A stretch of 64,000 nt of DNA from a virus: the IMG/VR virus record IMGVR_UViG_3300034196_000019, positions 26,623-90,622 of that record; one strand, written 5' to 3'. The notes under the pieces were generated by a model. It worked only from the letters and a program-made list of their open reading frames with translations. It was not told the DNA's origin and made no database searches. The position numbers and the translations under genes were made by a program. The stretch's first letter is position 1. Each line of letters opens with the position of its first letter. Below are positions 821-33,063 of this stretch, piece after piece.

Positions 821-2256
821 TACCTATAGAAATCCTCGCATACCCCTTGTATTGCCTAGCAATGAATGTATACTACTTAAGGCGAGGTAGCATTACTTGG
901 AGACAATCACCAACCCTGCATGAAATTTAAACTCCCTGGAAATTAGCTTTGTATTCGTTGGGTGTTATTGTTTATCTTGGGGAGCAAATCCTGAGATAGT
1001 TCATATTCTATCGTCTCGATAGGAATGGGGCTTGATAGGATGTGCTGGGACAATAGACCCCCTCTATCATAATCGCAAAATCCGTTGAGCTACTCTATTA
1101 GCTCATATACCGACCCCCCAATGCTACGCATTGGCTATATCTATCACTTATTGCAACGCAATGTATTAAGACTATCAATGAACTATACTACTTGACTATT
1201 ATATTCTTCTCTGAATGGACCTCAAGAATCGTCAATTTAACAAGCGGACGGGCATATTGTAGATTATGCGAAGTCTTGTTACACTTGTAACAGAGGTTTA
1301 TGCACACTTGACAGACCTTTGTCAACCAATGATAAATCATTGAATAATACTATACCATCAGCATTACTGATAGCTTATACCCTTCCCTTCGTTTACGAAG
1401 AACATTCTCCCACTCATAGCATATTATATTCTTCTCAGATAAGAATTGATAATGAATTGTAGCTATTATGTTCTAATCTTCGATTAGGAAATACAATTGG
1501 ACAAGATATATTAATTATTGGCGAGATATTCTCTTGTGATGCAAGAAAGTAGTTGATTTAGTTTAGATAGAAAAGTGTGCTTAACATATCGAGAGAGTAG
1601 GGAACATATAAGCAGTAATAATAAGTTACTAACAGTAAGTAAGCCTTATAGAGAGGATATCCCAGGGGTAGATAACAATACTCACTGCTATGCAGTGGAT
1701 AAAGAGCCTATTACCACAAGAATTAGCACAATACAAGAAGGTATTCGAGGAGTGTAAATACTATTCTTTGCATGAGCAAAGAATAGGAACAATATATCCA
1801 CAGTTTCACTGCGTAGGCCATATGTTATAAGGCTTTCACTATTATAGAGGTATGGTTATATACAGAGAGGAGTAGCTCTATATTCTGTGCTGTAGCACAG
1901 GACAGTGTAAACTATTGGCGCTGCCAATGAGTGGTGCTGATACATGCCTTGCATGTGATATGAGTAATGCTTTCACTGCAATGCAGTGGATACAAGAATG
2001 TTCCATGTGTCTCACATGAGATAAGATCAAGATCACAAGCTAGAGCTTGGATTTGTGTTGAATCTATTTTTATTTAACTGCGACAGCAGGAGCGTATGTG
2101 GTGTTATCAAGATCGCAAGATCAAAGGCGTACACTCTCCATTGCCCTGCAATGTGCTTACTCTGTCCAATGCGTTCGCATTGAATATACATACTCCTCTA
2201 TCATTCTGATAAAGACAGCTAGAAGTAATTATATCAGACAAATACTGTTGACAAAG
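821..2256. other. Gene-free region carrying an array of about 25 mini-hairpins
   Basis: This 1.4-kb stretch lies between a rightward and a leftward terminator. I found no convincing gene in it. It holds many perfect short inverted repeats of different sequence but the same build (stem 5-7 bp, loop mostly 3-4 nt). Stems with at least 6 bp and a 3-4 nt loop start at 1008, 1118, 1277, 1327, 1473, 1683, 1761 (11-bp stem), 1885, 1914, 1942, 1974, 2004, 2139 and 2167. Weaker ones start at 1087, 1150, 1308, 1357, 1387, 1428, 1532, 1626, 2036, 2078, 2111 and 2199. From 1885 to 2211 the centres step by 28-33 bases with one 41-base gap. Candidate roles are a structured non-coding RNA, an origin or other replication element, or binding sites for a structure-specific protein. 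Confidence 0.8.
847..874 (+). promoter_or_regulatory. Candidate rightward promoter facing the hairpin array
   Basis: TTGTAT and TATACT are separated by 16 bases, the spacing used by most other promoters seen in this window. It would drive transcription rightward through 880-2256. The -35 box is imperfect and there is no direct proof of use. Confidence 0.35.
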
Positions 2257-2840: not shown

Positions 2841-2898
2841 GGTTTGAATCCTTATGTTGTTTACTTTGGAACAATCTGTTCCGTTTTTGTATGTGTCT

Positions 2899-2926
2899 AT
2901 TCTATCATTCTAGCCCTCTGTGTCAA
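2899..2926 (-). promoter_or_regulatory. Sigma70-type promoter for the 2283-2840 genes
   Basis: Leftward TTGACA (2921-2926), 16-base spacer, TAGAAT (2899-2904). The same box pair recurs at 6212, 9355 and 40121. Confidence 0.75.
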
Positions 2927-2991
2927 CAGAAAATACGAAGAAATGTTGGATATTTTGAAAGTATTTTCACCGCAAGAATTTATGCTTATAT

Positions 2992-3018
2992 CCTCTATAG
3001 GGTTTTATCTTATAGAGG
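2992..3018 (-). other. Hairpin spanning the stop codon of the HTH gene
   Basis: Perfect 8-bp inverted repeat CCTCTATA/TATAGAGG with an 11-base loop that contains the TAA of the gene at 3010. There is no U-run, so it is more likely an mRNA-end stabiliser or weak terminator than a classic terminator. Confidence 0.45.
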
Positions 3019-3807
3019 ATTTGCATTTTCTTGTGACAAAAGTGGGACATTTGTGTCACACATATACTCTGTGCCCTGCACAGTCTCTTGAATTTCTTGA
3101 GGCACCCAACGATATACAGTGCGTCTAGTCACTCCTAGAATGCTTGCGATACTCTTAACAGAACGACCCTGGCTCTTCATAATCAAAGCCTTCTCACTAT
3201 TAGGAACCACCCAACCAGATGTCTCTTCGATCTTCTCGATATCTAGCTTACTAGATAATGCCTCACCACTAAGCATCTCTAGCTTCTCAGATTGTTCCTT
3301 AGCTAATAGCTCTAACCCGTCTACTTTCTGTTTCAATTTGCTAAATGCTGACACACTGGTAAGCCCCGACATAATTGAATCACTATTCCTCACAGCCTTC
3401 TTAAGCTCGACAGAAAGATGCCCAAACCTTTGCTTACCAAACGAATCAGGCAACACTTTAACAACATAAGGGTTATGCCTCCATGTCTTGCTCCTTGCCT
3501 CTAGCACCCTCTCAGGGTCTTGATTATGCTCAATTGCTGCATAGATTAAACTCTCATCGGGGAGACAGTTGTTATCTACTTGATATGTATATGCACTCAC
3601 TCCAAGCTGTTTGCTAATAGTGAGAGTGGTGCTATTGTCTTTCATCTGCTTAAAAGCCATCAATTCTGCCTTCTTAGCGGCACTAAGTACAGCCTTGTGC
3701 CCATCATCAAATGATAGCAATAAACTGTTGGCCTCAATCACTCTTCGATAAGCCTCCTCTTTTGTCACCGTTGGGACAATTTCAAACTGTGCATATTCTT
3801 CAGTCAA
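3010..3807 (-). CDS. DNA-binding protein with C-terminal helix-turn-helix
   Basis: 265 aa with a TTG start placed directly after the TAA of the upstream gene; GGAGG lies seven bases ahead. The middle is helical with a leucine-rich stretch near 160-190. Residues about 205-240 (ALIMKSQGRSVKSIASILGV then TRRTVYRWV) match a resolvase/Hin-type helix-turn-helix. No catalytic domain is seen, so a transcription regulator or homing-type DNA-binding partner are both possible. It shares the junction sequence TAATTGACTGAAGA with the gene upstream. Confidence 0.7.
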   Translation of the reverse strand: MTEEYAQFEIVPTVTKEEAYRRVIEANSLLLSFDDGHKAVLSAAKKAELMAFKQMKDNSTTLTISKQLGVSAYTYQVDNNCLPDESLIYAAIEHNQDPERVLEARSKTWRHNPYVVKVLPDSFGKQRFGHLSVELKKAVRNSDSIMSGLTSVSAFSKLKQKVDGLELLAKEQSEKLEMLSGEALSSKLDIEKIEETSGWVVPNSEKALIMKSQGRSVKSIASILGVTRRTVYRWVPQEIQETVQGTEYMCDTNVPLLSQENANPL

Positions 3808-5552: not shown

Positions 5553-5800
5553 TCAAACATAACACAAAGAAAAGCTAAAGAACCAAACGCCCATATTCTC
5601 GCTATATTCTACCTTTGGCTGCTTAGTTTCAGGGAGAGCCATCTTGTAGCACAAGCGGAGGCAAGCAATCTCTGAACCGTACACGTACATTGTGTTGTCA
5701 ATTTGCTCGCATACCACTATGTAATAGTACGTACATCCTCTTTTGTGAAGGCTTTGTAAGAGGAAGCAAGATGGGAAAGTTGAATTTTAGTGGCTTGCAT
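5553..5800 (-). pseudogene. Small unknown gene split by an apparent single-base frameshift
   Basis: An ATG at 5800 with AAGGA upstream opens 27 codons (MQATKIQLSHLASSYKAFTK...) that end at a TAG. The next frame, overlapping at about 5720-5735, continues with convincing protein (YYYIVVCEQIDNTMYVYGSE...) down to the TGA at 5553. Joined by a -1 shift, the pieces give one protein of about 82 aa. There is no classic slippery heptamer at the junction, so a mutation or a sequence error is more likely than programmed frameshifting. An in-frame ATG 19 codons further upstream is an alternative start. Confidence 0.5.
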
Positions 5801-11885: not shown

Positions 11886-12862
11886 CCAAAACCGTTAAGA
11901 TCCCAATCACGGGAATATTGATTACCCTTGCTGCTAAAGAAGTCCTGAGAAGAGTAACCGCTAATACCTTTGTAGAACCAATCTCCAATGGGGTTATACT
12001 CTACATTATAAATAGGTTCATAACCAAGGTTAGCTAGGCACAAGTCAATCCGACTCTTAGCGAACACCTCAAGTTGATGAGGGGTAATACCGTCAATCTT
12101 ACCTTTCTCAAAGATCTTAGCAATAATAACTTGTTCATGCTCAAGAACAACTTTAGCTGCCTCTACAATATCCTCTTTCAAGGACTGTTCTTGTTCTGGT
12201 GTAATCTCTCCAGCTTCTCGTTTCTCGTGCAACAGTGTACGGAACAACCAAGCTGCTGCAACAGAGTGAAGATGTTCATCACGGGCCGAGAAGTTAATAC
12301 CACTTACAGTGTTTACAAGTTTGTTCTTACCCTGCATTTGAAAGTGCTTCAAGAATGCAAAGCTAGAATATAGGATAGCACCTTCACCAAACGTAAAGCC
12401 GCCCAATGCCCGGAGGTCATCCTTGTTCTCTAGTGTGTCAGTCAAATAATCAATACGAGCTTTAAGCTCAGGATCTTTTGTATATTCTTCATAAAACTCA
12501 TCTGTAGCAATACCAAGCTCTTCGTTCAAGGCTTTGTAGAAGAATTGGTGGATGCCCAGTTCCACTGCACCAAAGGTAGCCGCCATTGGTTGGATATCAG
12601 CAGGACGTGGAAACTTCTTCATTACAAAGTTAATCCAGAACTCTGAACCAATAATCTGCTCATACTTAGTAAAGATGCGGAGTGTTGTAATTACACCGTG
12701 CTTTTCTTGCGGTGTGAGGTTAACAAGAATATCTTGCTTGTCCTTATACACCTTAACTTCAAAGTGAGGCCAGTATACAGCTTGCTGGGAATTCATAAAC
12801 TCAATTGCTTCTGGATAATCTACTGTAAATGTAGTCTTCAGAGTCTGCATACGTACTGTCAT
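11867..12862 (-). CDS. nrdB: Ribonucleoside-diphosphate reductase small subunit
   Basis: 331 aa, di-iron radical subunit. Likely metal ligands are E74 (IGSEFW), E101/H105 (VELGIHQ), E160 (FTFGEGA) and E196/H199 (ARDEHLH), all in the expected order. It supplies the tyrosyl radical to NrdA. ATG overlaps the stop of the glutaredoxin gene (ATGA), indicating coupled translation of the grx-nrdB-nrdA set. Confidence 0.97.
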   Translation of the reverse strand: MTVRMQTLKTTFTVDYPEAIEFMNSQQAVYWPHFEVKVYKDKQDILVNLTPQEKHGVITTLRIFTKYEQIIGSEFWINFVMKKFPRPADIQPMAATFGAVELGIHQFFYKALNEELGIATDEFYEEYTKDPELKARIDYLTDTLENKDDLRALGGFTFGEGAILYSSFAFLKHFQMQGKNKLVNTVSGINFSARDEHLHSVAAAWLFRTLLHEKREAGEITPEQEQSLKEDIVEAAKVVLEHEQVIIAKIFEKGKIDGITPHQLEVFAKSRIDLCLANLGYEPIYNVEYNPIGDWFYKGISGYSSQDFFSSKGNQYSRDWDLNGFGWVVKK

Positions 12863-13119
12863 TTGTATTCCTTAGCAAGCTCAAGAATTTGAGCCACTGC
12901 ATCGTTACTAGAACCACGAACAATATCAATTGGCAACTCACCGCCCTTACCATAAAATGCTGTAACTGGAATGGCCCGGATACCAAGAGCATACGCCTCT
13001 TCCATAACATCTGAATCCATAATATCCTTCACATCAAAAGGAATATTATTACTCTCCAAGACAGATTTAACTACTTTGCAACCTGCACAATTATCCGCGC
13101 TGAAAATTGAAATACTCAT
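12859..13119 (-). CDS. Glutaredoxin / NrdH-like redoxin
   Basis: 86 aa thioredoxin-fold protein with the redox motif CAGC at residues 11-14 and the cis-proline region 'IRAIPVTAF'. It most likely reduces the CVVC tail of the phage NrdA, as expected from its position immediately upstream of nrdB. Confidence 0.9.
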   Translation of the reverse strand: MSISIFSADNCAGCKVVKSVLESNNIPFDVKDIMDSDVMEEAYALGIRAIPVTAFYGKGGELPIDIVRGSSNDAVAQILELAKEYK

Positions 13120-13125
13120 TACGCC

Positions 13126-13554
13126 TTACTCCTTACAAGCAATATTTACATTAGATACATTGTTCATCATTTTAGCTTGTGTTGCTTCTGCTACATTGTG
13201 GATGTTGTTCAAAGCTAGCATACACCCTACACGACTAATCTCACTCTTTGTTGATCGTACCATGTCTTCTACAGCCATGCCATTACGAATCCAATAATCA
13301 TCTACGCGTTCCTTGAACACTACTCGTGGGCCTCTATCCACTTGCCCACTAAATCGACTACGATGCAAACAATCTGTAATCTCCCAACCTGTGCTCAAGT
13401 CAGCACCCATCTCATGTAGCACTTGTTCAAACAATTTCTCATCTTGCCCCACCCATGCTGCTTCCCAATCTTTGTGGTATTCCAAGTCTAGGAAAGACAA
13501 GTATTGATCAAAGAGGTAGGCTTCTGGTTTGCTGCTGCTTTCGTTACTACTCAT
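13126..13554 (-). CDS. Unknown protein in the nucleotide-metabolism block (142 aa)
   Basis: Located between thyX and glutaredoxin, with its ATG overlapping the thyX stop codon (ATGA). Mixed helix/strand, with a Trp-rich stretch (DWEAAWVGQDEKLF) and a basic segment near 75-90. I do not recognise the family. Context suggests a role near dNTP synthesis, which is inference only. Confidence 0.75.
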   Translation of the reverse strand: MSSNESSSKPEAYLFDQYLSFLDLEYHKDWEAAWVGQDEKLFEQVLHEMGADLSTGWEITDCLHRSRFSGQVDRGPRVVFKERVDDYWIRNGMAVEDMVRSTKSEISRVGCMLALNNIHNVAEATQAKMMNNVSNVNIACKE

Positions 13555-13997
13555 TTAATACAAGCCTCCATCTTTAAATTATTAGGAATTAATTGGCGAT
13601 GTTGAATGAATCCTTTGAAGTTACTAGACCAGAAGTTACCAGTCCTATCTACGTGCGTAATACCAGCTTTCCAACTCTTAGGGTACACAGTGCTGTTAAC
13701 CATTTTCTCCCCATACCCTTCATTGTAATTCTGCATTGGGGTTGCTTGGTGTTCAAATGGCGAGGCGTGAACTGGCTCACTCACAACAAGGCGCTCATAA
13801 ATACGCTTAGCTTTCTCAAGAGTATCATCTAAAGAACGAAAGCTCACTTGAGCACAGCAGCTAGCAGAAATAGCTAGAGCATCTTCCAAAGGGATACCAC
13901 AGCCTTTCAGCCAATATCCCTCACCAAAATATGGTGTATGCCAATCAACAGAAGACAATTGTACAGGATCTTCTTTCTCAAAGCAATCCAGCATCAC
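13551..13997 (-). CDS. thyX: Flavin-dependent thymidylate synthase, C-terminal part (after in-frame stop)
   Basis: The codons here continue the ThyX reading frame of 14046-14474 without any shift. Between them lie one TAG (14046-14048) and 16 codons reading LRNHEDAQPEIKRLAE, which is standard ThyX sequence. The C-terminal part holds 'ASCCAQVSFRS', 'HASPFEHQATP' and 'FKGFIQHRQLIPNN', regions that bind FAD and dUMP in the family. A GTG at 13997 could allow separate translation, but no good ribosome site is visible there. ThyX makes dTMP from dUMP with methylene-folate and FADH2. Confidence 0.85.
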   Translation of the reverse strand: MMLDCFEKEDPVQLSSVDWHTPYFGEGYWLKGCGIPLEDALAISASCCAQVSFRSLDDTLEKAKRIYERLVVSEPVHASPFEHQATPMQNYNEGYGEKMVNSTVYPKSWKAGITHVDRTGNFWSSNFKGFIQHRQLIPNNLKMEACIK

Positions 13998-15048: not shown

Positions 15049-15617
15049 TTAGCTTTCTCCTGTACCAATACACGGTTAGCAAAGAATACAAGTTTCTCTG
15101 CATCATAAACACTATTGTTGCCTTTCTTCTTTAATCCTTTACGATCAGCAGCAATACGCCAAACTGCTTTAAGGAGATTACCCTCCGCAAAGGTAAGACC
15201 TAGGGCTTCAATGATATCGTTAGCCTCAGCGGAGTATGGGGTTTCTTGTGTAGTGGGATTATCCACCTTTACTTTGTAATAATCAACTGAGCTGCCTGTA
15301 TATTCCTCTTTAGGTTCTTCTGACAAATCACCAAACACAAGATTACCAGTTTCAGGATTACGTGTGCAAGGGGAGATTACTTCTTTTGTGTCTCGGTATG
15401 CAGGAGAAATTGGTCGTAGATTTTTACTCGCCCAAGGCCAATTAGTATTCAATGTACGACAAACCGCACCTCTTGTACTGATCCAGTATCCATTGTCTTC
15501 ATCAGCCAGGAGCTTCTCAACCACAGGAAGGATGGTTCCTTTCTTAATTGGTTGATATGTATCATCATAAGCATCATTTATTACTTGTACATAATCCCCA
15601 ACTTTAAAATATGTCAA
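15045..15617 (-). CDS. DUF3310-like protein with N-terminal SH3/KOW-like domain
   Basis: 190 aa. Residues 1-70 form a small barrel-like domain (FKVGDYVQVINDAYDD...KKGTILPVV). Residues about 110-190 match the DUF3310 plan: 'YYKVKV...ANDIIEALGLTFAEGNLLKAVWRIAADRKG'. T7 gp1.7, a nucleotide kinase, shares this DUF3310 core, so a nucleotide-linked role is plausible. TTG start in a TTGA overlap with the upstream stop. Confidence 0.75.
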   Translation of the reverse strand: MTYFKVGDYVQVINDAYDDTYQPIKKGTILPVVEKLLADEDNGYWISTRGAVCRTLNTNWPWASKNLRPISPAYRDTKEVISPCTRNPETGNLVFGDLSEEPKEEYTGSSVDYYKVKVDNPTTQETPYSAEANDIIEALGLTFAEGNLLKAVWRIAADRKGLKKKGNNSVYDAEKLVFFANRVLVQEKAK

Positions 15618-19980: not shown

Positions 19981-20292
19981 TTAGTCATCATAACCGCTAA
20001 TCTCTTTGAAGTATTCCTCAAACTCTTCTTGCTCCATTCGCTTATCTACCAACTTCTCAAATGAATTGCCAGCATCCACTTCTGCTGCTTTCAATGTAGA
20101 CTTAACAATCTTCTTAGTCAAGCCAAGTTTATTCAACTCTTTATCGTATGTGAATTCATCAGCAAGGGTACGCAAGTCTTCTTTAAGGACAAGAATCTCA
20201 TTGTGAAGAATACGACCTCGACGGAAGAGATCTTTAGCTTCCTGTGGTTTTGGTTTATCGAACAGCTCGCCTTGCAATACATTATTAGTCAT
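19981..20292 (-). CDS. Unknown charged helical protein (103 aa)
   Basis: Nearly all helix, with acidic and basic patches and an acidic C-terminus (EEFEEYFKEISGYDD). Composition would suit a DNA- or protein-binding coiled coil. Last gene before a terminator. Not recognised. Confidence 0.75.
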   Translation of the reverse strand: MTNNVLQGELFDKPKPQEAKDLFRRGRILHNEILVLKEDLRTLADEFTYDKELNKLGLTKKIVKSTLKAAEVDAGNSFEKLVDKRMEQEEFEEYFKEISGYDD

Positions 20293-20304
20293 TATTGAAT
20301 CTCC

Positions 20305-20478
20305 TTAGATATTATTATCTTGTTTAAATTTCTCAACAGCTACCGCAAAGTCTGATTTATCCATTGCAGTTACTTGGAGAACGACAGAAAGCTCTGGAAT
20401 AAAAACCGCATCCCAATACATACCACCATCTTCACCGGCTTCCAAAGAATTCTTAGTTTCAATTTGAATCTCTTTCAT
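20305..20478 (-). CDS. Small unknown protein (57 aa)
   Basis: ATG with GGAGAG upstream; TAA is followed at once by the ribosome site of the next gene. Contains 'EAGEDGGMYWDAVFIPEL'. No family recognised. Confidence 0.7.
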   Translation of the reverse strand: MKEIQIETKNSLEAGEDGGMYWDAVFIPELSVVLQVTAMDKSDFAVAVEKFKQDNNI

Positions 20479-20480
20479 AA

Positions 20481-20687
20481 CTACTCTCCTTTAAAATTAA
20501 ATACAGGTTTCATTTTCTTAATCTCTTTCATAATACGGATAAACTCATCTGTAGCATTTTCAGCATATAACATACTTTCTTCGCTAGATACTTGTTTCTC
20601 AAGATTATCAGAGTCTTTCACTTGCCAACGATCAAAGATAAGAGAAATATCTTCTCTTGTTAGGCTGTAGGATACAGGCTTAGTCAT
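20481..20687 (-). CDS. Small unknown helical protein (68 aa)
   Basis: Start chosen at the ATG at 20687 (MTKPVSYSLTREDISLIFDR), which overlaps the end of the upstream gene by eight bases; the longer reading to 20816 lies inside that gene. Acidic helix in the middle, basic end. Function unknown. Confidence 0.65.
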   Translation of the reverse strand: MTKPVSYSLTREDISLIFDRWQVKDSDNLEKQVSSEESMLYAENATDEFIRIMKEIKKMKPVFNFKGE

Positions 20688-21123
20688 ATAGCTCAATACC
20701 AAAGTTAATCTCCCCACGTACATAGTCTTTAGACTGAAAAGCATATACCTGTACTTCGGACGGGATATAGTTTTTGTACGAGAACGATGCTGGTCCTGCA
20801 ATAAATACTTTACCAAGTTTAAGTTTATTAACTGTTTTAGTATCTCCCTCTTTTAACAGAATACCAATCTTTGCAGTGCTGTGTTTTGCATCAGTTAGCT
20901 TACGACTTAGAGTAAACCAACATGCATCACTAATTAACTTAAGACAATGGACTATCTGATCAGGATCTTTGGAATTACATTCATAATGTAAAGGGTAATG
21001 CTTTACCTTAGACTTATCATCTGTGTATTCAATATCGAAACGCTCAAGTCGGTACAGGGCTTCAGTTTTATACTCATTTCCAATCTGACCAATTGTTTCT
21101 GTTAGATCAATTATATTAGTCAT
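20680..21123 (-). CDS. Unknown protein in the replication region (147 aa)
   Basis: Mixed alpha/beta, with 'LDLTETIGQIGNEY'-type start and several beta strands at the end. Sits between the single-strand binding protein and exonuclease genes. Not recognised. Confidence 0.7.
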   Translation of the reverse strand: MTNIIDLTETIGQIGNEYKTEALYRLERFDIEYTDDKSKVKHYPLHYECNSKDPDQIVHCLKLISDACWFTLSRKLTDAKHSTAKIGILLKEGDTKTVNKLKLGKVFIAGPASFSYKNYIPSEVQVYAFQSKDYVRGEINFGIELYD

Positions 21124-32561: not shown

Positions 32562-32604
32562 GAGAATTATTCTCCATAAGTGTACTATTCTGAACGATGT
32601 TCAG

Positions 32605-32632
32605 TGTACAAGCCTCTGTACCAGAATGTCAA
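32605..32632 (-). promoter_or_regulatory. Main leftward early promoter with overlapping palindrome
   Basis: Leftward TTGACA (32627-32632) and TGTACA (32605-32610) are 16 bases apart. A palindrome TGTACA-6-TGTACC (32605-32622) covers the -10 box and part of the spacer. A related palindrome lies upstream at 32661-32681. This layout suggests a repressor or activator acting on early transcription. Confidence 0.5.
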
Positions 32633-32660
32633 GCTGTCTTATTGAAATTAACACAAATCT

Positions 32661-32681
32661 TGGTACAAAAGCTCTGTACCA
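32661..32681. promoter_or_regulatory. Perfect palindrome, likely operator
   Basis: TGGTACA-7-TGTACCA, two perfect 7-base arms. It shares the half-site with the palindrome over the leftward promoter, with centres 57-58 bases apart (about five or six DNA turns). Confidence 0.5.
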
Positions 32682-33063
32682 GTCCGCGACATCCATATTA
32701 TATATCCTTGGTACGGGACGCACCTGCGGATACTAAAACCAACACAGATATTCCTGACGGAATGCCATAAAATAAAATACAGTCAACACAAATCCAAGCT
32801 CTCGCTTATGACCTTGATCTATATTCTGTGTAAACACACAGGAAGTAATTACTCTTATAATACAGATCAAGAGCAACATCAAGATCTTTTTGTATTTGTG
32901 TTTGATTTTTATCTGTACAGCGTACAGCCTTATATTTTGTGTTGTCCGTAAGGACGCTTGAGTGTTCATGTGCAATGCACATAATATACACTATTCATTG
33001 CTACGCAATAGGCATACAGCAAGATTCTCCTCATACAAACCATTTCCTTTTGTAACACTCCTA

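Follow-up and report, generated by a model that had tools for sequence, protein, structure and literature searches.

A hairpin array with diverse stems between convergent transcription units of a phage genome: a possible shape-defined DNA element of genome ends or DNA entry

Introduction

The early promoters of bacteriophage N4 are mini-hairpins with 3-base loops closed by a C-G pair. In bacteria, short palindromes are clustered in intergenic regions as REP/BIME elements, and some phages produce large ornate RNAs, such as GOLLD and ROOL, from long structured non-coding regions. In phage T5, an injection stop signal (iss) is annotated at a spot that corresponds to the arrays described here, in a region with 8 perfect hairpins where 1.2 are expected, loops with an innermost unpaired stretch of 3 bases being the largest class. 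Apart from T7 and T5, there is to our knowledge little information on how ends are made or recognized in phages with long terminal repeats, or on how such phages pause their entry. The Pakpunaviruses, several of which are considered below, are under study for phage therapy.

Here we analyze a 64,000-base stretch (the window), comprising bases 26623-90622 of a 90,622-base IMG/VR phage record. Like the T5 iss, positions 821-2256 of the window are non-coding, rich in palindromes and situated at a convergent junction. Our search of the open-access literature found no description of such arrays. Because a shape conserved without a conserved sequence escapes homology searches, it is invisible to standard annotation, and many phage genomes may contain a functional part that has so far gone unnoticed.

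Results

A dense hairpin array in a gene-free region

Scans for hairpins, ORFs and GC skew showed that positions 821-2256 form a gene-free mini-hairpin array between two convergent transcription units. A preliminary description of this DNA had counted at least 14 perfect hairpins between 1008 and 2182; with a stem of at least 6 bp and a loop of 3-4 bases, exactly 14 were found there, those it had listed among them, and the excess held against 500 dinucleotide shuffles of 821-2256, which gave 1.1 ± 1.0 hairpins with a maximum of 5. Among them are CTATCG-TCT-CGATAG (1008-1022), CCAATGC-TAC-GCATTGG (1118-1134), TGTTAC-ACTT-GTAACA (1277-1292), CAATGA-TAAA-TCATTG (1327-1342) and ATTGGC-GCT-GCCAAT (1914-1928). 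The diversity of stem sequences at a constant size, also noted earlier, was confirmed in part: the sequences do differ, but within limits, since the loop is closed by a C-G pair in 11 of the 14 hairpins, often as TGC-N3/4-GCA. When all inverted repeats of at least 6 bp were classed by their innermost unpaired stretch, stretches of 2, 3 and 4 bases (the 2-base class being 4-base loops whose ends could pair) accounted for 6, 8 and 1, respectively, compared with approximately 0.4 expected for each. From 1885 onward, and with 5-bp stems included, successive hairpins are 28, 28, 32, 30, 31, (103), 28 and 30 bases apart.

No 1-kb stretch elsewhere in the 90.6-kb record came near this hairpin density. 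The remainder of the record was approximately at background, with one thinner patch at 32570-33050 as the exception; elsewhere in this genome, gene-poor gaps 0.4-1.4 kb long carried 0-2 hairpins each. The region also proved to be gene-free, as had been proposed, in that its longest stop-free frame is 73 codons and it lies between inward-facing terminators.

A tandem-repeat search of the array found no repeat unit. This result bears on the idea that the hairpins mimic CRISPR repeats, in the manner of the RNA anti-CRISPRs (Racrs) that phages encode (PMC10651486). By eye, some elements do resemble CRISPR repeats, with their stem and GGATA(A)A tails, but a Racr is a single copy of one host repeat, whereas many different stems of the same geometry are found here, and we regard such mimicry as extremely improbable.

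Genomic context and a second hairpin region

To the left, the array is bordered by a rightward gene (100-786, + strand), the intrinsic terminator of which (796-813, + strand) points into the array; to the right, a leftward operon likewise ends in an intrinsic terminator that points inward (2260-2277, - strand). The cumulative GC-skew maximum of the record falls at 2127, inside the array. Promoter-like sites in the array were at chance level, and no end repeats were seen in the record. The array gave no match in a DNA similarity search against named phages, and the proteins encoded by 100-786 and 3010-3807, used as baits, found no relatives among viral contigs. Separately, a strongly structured segment at 2851-3070, which contains the inverted repeat ATCCTCTATAGGGTTTTATCTTATAGAGGAT, adjoins the - strand gene 3010-3807; the 200-base piece 2851-3050 had a fold z-score of about -6 on the + strand and about -4 on the - strand.

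The genome appears siphophage-like from its genes for tail protein J and a family-A DNA polymerase, and the nearest named phages by major tail protein are the Pseudomonas phages phiPMW and SYP. This gene content largely refutes the reading of the hairpins as N4-type promoters, that is, DNA hairpins recognized by a virion RNA polymerase. Loops in PAK_P1 and SYP (see below) are often GNA, as that reading would have it, but the longest frames in the record (1215 and 1178 codons) belong to tail protein J and a tail-block gene and not to a giant polymerase, so that promoters of this type have almost no likelihood here.

The second, sparser hairpin region (32570-33050) has divergent genes on either side and hairpins at 32590, 32826, 32913 and 32968. 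It has two sequence elements in common with the array, and may serve replication or early transcription. Because it lies at a divergent junction, a terminus is not the only place where the element occurs, and a purely terminal role offers no explanation for this region. A 53-base element consisting of a hairpin and the tail GGATTTGTGTTGA occurs at 2024-2076 and, in the opposite orientation, at 32768-32820 (- strand) with 87% identity, and likewise in the relative G021 described below. Within the first copy lies the 5-bp hairpin CAAGC-TAGA-GCTTG (2036-2049).

Similar arrays in other phages

A pattern scan identified one true relative, the metagenomic record IMGVR_UViG_3300020045_001394 (G021), the last kilobase of which is 78% identical to window positions 1431-2212. 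Pattern matches L126-L129 were chance matches in unrelated phages, and L122 looks like a chance match in a coding region. Approximately 20 phages were scanned for arrays, among them distant kin related through the DNA polymerase; most were reached via relatives of the window phage, and the apparent link to Pseudomonas may be a sampling effect. The Pakpunavirus PAK_P1 has approximately 20 hairpins at 67188-69177; GATAGC/GCTATC and GAAAGC/GCTTTC are examples of their stems, and their loops are often GNA or GNNA on one or the other strand. Arrays were also found in phiPMW (20162-20735 of NC_041880), a phage grown on P. putida in the laboratory, in SYP (111-724), the Nankokuvirus PH826 and the records G011 and G017. 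None showed DNA similarity to the window array in the searches made.

The pitch of about 30 bases, first described from 1885 onward in the window, was recovered across all arrays: steps of 27-33 bases numbered 36, with homologous pairs counted twice, compared with 8.7 ± 2.8 under random placement (about 4-fold). The PH826 array has a different pitch, with steps of 24-25 bases. Ten array stretches pooled contained 96 perfect hairpins against 5.4 expected (18-fold), a figure that includes homologous pairs (the window record, G000, with G021, and PAK_P1 with EM) and is somewhat inflated because the arrays other than that of the window were picked as dense stretches. Their loops were closed by C-G in 57 cases, where 0.8 were expected (about 70-fold), and by G-C in 16, where 1.0 was expected; in the background set closure was mostly A-T or T-A. 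In the window record, G021, PAK_P1 and G011 alike, a strong excess of inverted repeats was seen only at innermost loops of 2-4 bases, and spacers of 0-1 or at least 5 bases showed no clear excess. C-G closure combined with these loop sizes is the signature of single strands that can fold.

The confinement of the excess to these loops points to single-strand hairpin geometry and away from ordinary palindromic protein sites, since selection for duplex palindromes would also have enriched spacers of 0, 1, 5 and 6 bases. Operators for a dimeric phage protein would explain why TGC-N3/4-GCA recurs in the window lineage, and variable centers are normal in operators. However, the stem sequences are too varied for one consensus with a fixed spacer, C-G closure tracks hairpin stability, and at one Pakpunavirus site the loop switches length between GAAAGC-GGA and GAAAGC-GACA. 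Duplex operators are therefore, in our estimation, a highly doubtful explanation.

Where ends are known, arrays lie at or near them. The Pakpunavirus array overlaps the 1.2-kb direct terminal repeat that is annotated in EM, K8 and C11; the terminal repeat of the Pakpunavirus Adele is 1165 bp (PMC12846349). Contig G019 carries an array-overlapping terminal repeat at both of its ends, and the SYP array overlaps a 351-base repeat that we read from the sequence at the ends of the record. Among the array-bearing phages, overlap with a terminal repeat was thus observed in Pakpunavirus and SYP. An annotated HNH endonuclease gene (68097-68699) lies mid-array in PAK_P1, within the terminal repeat.

Sites resembling parS, the bacterial centromere, with at most 2 mismatches to TGTTTCACGTGAAACA or TGTTCCACGTGGAACA, were seen in or beside the arrays of several phages and were almost absent elsewhere in the scanned sequence. 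They lie at 294, 963, 4266, 6222 and 7655 in SYP; at 15422, 20515 and 20735 in phiPMW; at 5641 and 6396 in G011; at 81295 and 82073 in G017; and at 67775 in G021. The window record has none at this threshold. Host ParB could possibly be recruited near the array or the genome end in phages with such sites.

Stems are conserved while loops and spacers drift

Comparison of the window array with that of G021 showed changes at 14 of 130 stem positions, 17 of 33 loop positions and 214 of 757 spacer positions, or 11% for stems and 28% for spacers. In the second region (32570-33050), the corresponding counts were 0 of 48, 3 of 13 and 103 of 640. Uncompensated stem change, which the preliminary description had singled out as evidence against selection on structure, is accordingly not the rule. 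At several hairpins the loop differs: in CACTGC-TAT-GCAGTG (1683-1697), where the stem is unchanged, it is ATG in G021, in CACTGC-AAT-GCAGTG (1974-1988) TAT, in CATGTG-TCT-CACATG (2004-2018) GGA, in CATTGC-CCT-GCAATG (2139-2153) CTT and in CAATGC-GTTC-GCATTG (2167-2182) GGTTC. Three loops are exact reverse complements of their counterparts: CTT/AAG, in ACATGC-CTT-GCATGT (1942-1956); TGTA/TACA, in CTGTGC-TGTA-GCACAG (1885-1900), which has a copy in the second region, CTGTGT-AAAC-ACACAG; and TTC/GAA, the hairpin of which has an imperfect form in the window. Such inversions imply that the DNA itself folds or switches template. Two-sided stem changes are few, because close pairs differ little and most stems are unchanged. 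One is seen in CTATTCTTTGC-ATGA-GCAAAGAATAG (1761-1786), the inner C-G pair of which is T-A in G021; at the place of CTAATC-TTC-GATTAG (1473-1487), G021 has a different hairpin, CTATCGA-TGTA-TCGATAG.

The Pakpunaviruses gave the same picture. Across 18 related phages, non-coding divergence was 1.7% in stems, 8.5% in loops and 9.7% in spacers. A loop inversion (TTGA/TCAA) was found here as well, and in phage EM CTTAGC-TGTC-GCTAAG is swapped for ATTGGC-TACC-GCCAAT at the homologous position.

Perfect stems combined with inverted loops are typical of template switching or hairpin-mediated inversion, and non-coding DNA tolerates the products, so that the arrays might be a functionless by-product of mutation in which near-palindromes are perfected in unconstrained DNA. 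Against this, stems change less than spacers in both comparisons, which indicates that they are held by selection; the gene-poor gaps of the same genome are almost devoid of hairpins; and the C-G closure bias is 70-fold. The convergent 1.6-kb gap of phage Felix O1 also has no hairpin excess. We consider a purely mutational origin improbable. To the eye, the Felix O1 gap (12305-13928) appears packed with degenerate short repeats of the type TTGTTAAG/CTTGTTAG, which might represent another solution at this location.

The arrays show little sign of selection as RNA

If the hairpins were selected as RNA, G-U pairs would be tolerated on one strand. Among the pooled arrays, a single G-T pair was present in 14 hairpins (9.4 in shuffles) and a single A-C pair in 15 (10.1 in shuffles), both near background and with no strand bias, which favors DNA. 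The mismatches just outside the stems are likewise strand-symmetric, with T-G at 26 and C-A at 21 stems. Over all lineages, the reverse arrangements at this flanking pair are much rarer (G..T at 4 and A..C at 1), so that pyrimidine-purine is by far the commoner order. Whole-region RNA folding of 200-base pieces on both strands gave no outstanding energy in the array, and Rfam covariance models found no match in the region. Apparent cTTCGg RNA tetraloops in G011 and G017 proved to be mainly 3-base TTC loops closed by C-G, and hence are no evidence for RNA.

These data bear on whether the array is transcribed into one or more non-coding RNAs, the hairpins of which would protect it from nucleases or serve as a target for a protein that binds RNA or acts in defence. 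Stable small loops suit RNA as well as DNA, the G011 loops show some bias in orientation (TTC on one strand), and in PAK_P3, a KPP10-like phage of a related genus, intergenic regions are the source of abundant late small RNAs and of early antisense RNAs (PMC4933390). Nevertheless, besides the pairing symmetry, the unremarkable fold energy and the lack of an Rfam match, terminators stand on both sides of the array with no excess of promoters, GNA/TNC loops occur in both orientations in PAK_P1, and loops have been inverted. Strand symmetry, fold energy, terminators and promoter counts, all of them properties read from sequence, would favor DNA over RNA, and we judge an RNA function to be unlikely.

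Discussion

Selection on structure, which had been proposed from the window alone, is well supported by sequence comparison: the excess is limited to hairpin-compatible loop sizes, stems are kept while loops turn over, some changes are two-sided, and independent arrays occur elsewhere. Among the three functions offered earlier, a long beaded RNA has the weakest support (no use of G-U pairs, no global RNA stability, terminators, no promoter excess, no Rfam match), and an element of DNA replication, packaging or the terminus, or a set of sites for a shape-reading protein, fits better. We put at about even the chance that the region acts in cis as an array of DNA hairpins that belongs to the genome end or the convergence region and is read by shape. 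The array would be a string of hairpins with 6-bp stems and 3-4-base loops, often about 30 bases apart, placed where rightward and leftward transcription meet, a junction that in relatives with known ends would lie at or beside the physical genome terminus. Whenever end processing, copying of the terminal repeat, packaging or entry leaves array DNA unwound or single-stranded, each module would fold, and a putative phage or host protein could read its shape as a stop or a landing site. Under shape reading, stem pairing would matter and the spelling of the loop would not. The terminal position in the window phage is inferred from relatives, and the array would probably serve end processing, packaging or DNA entry. 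Against the hairpin-array explanation, the positive supercoiling favored by convergent transcription does not promote the extrusion of cruciforms.

More generally, it is possible, and we propose it tentatively, that several groups of phages of approximately 85-107 kb, mostly infecting Pseudomonas, share a previously undescribed DNA mini-hairpin array that is defined by shape, linked to the terminus or junction, often of about 30-base pitch, selected on both strands, and used for genome ends or DNA entry via a structure-reading protein. With Pakpunavirus, phiPMW and SYP sharing this design, the question extends to laboratory phages, and a conserved, uncharacterized region in the Pakpunaviruses would be of practical interest for phage therapy.

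Among known systems, N4 promoters depend on a giant virion RNA polymerase, for which there is no candidate here, and the window differs in having many hairpins with diverse stems. REP/BIME elements share a sequence, whereas the members of the window array share a geometry and no common palindrome. GOLLD and ROOL differ in that the window array has neither an Rfam match nor an outstanding fold energy. The T5 iss region is more alike, being non-coding, rich in palindromes and located at a convergent junction where the long terminal repeat ends, but its hairpins are fewer and mostly A-T closed, with direct repeats alongside; by analogy, it may be taken as a weaker parallel to the arrays. The T5 proteins A1, A2 and Dmp had no match in the window record (tblastn at an E-value of 0.01 for A1 and A2), in PAK_P1 or in the examined parts of phiPMW and SYP. 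The PaP1 genome was described as being without complicated secondary structures (PMC3652863), and the open-access literature that we searched held no account of the Pakpunavirus or SYP terminal regions as hairpin arrays. In these phages the loops are mostly GNA/GNNA or the complement, which is less so in the window, and there is no sequence similarity to the window array. Yet the terminal-repeat regions of the Pakpunaviruses (PAK_P1, PaP1, K8) and of SYP are like the window array in their diverse short stems, loops of 3-4 bases and C-G closure, and the Pakpunaviruses also in that stems are conserved while loops are free to vary.
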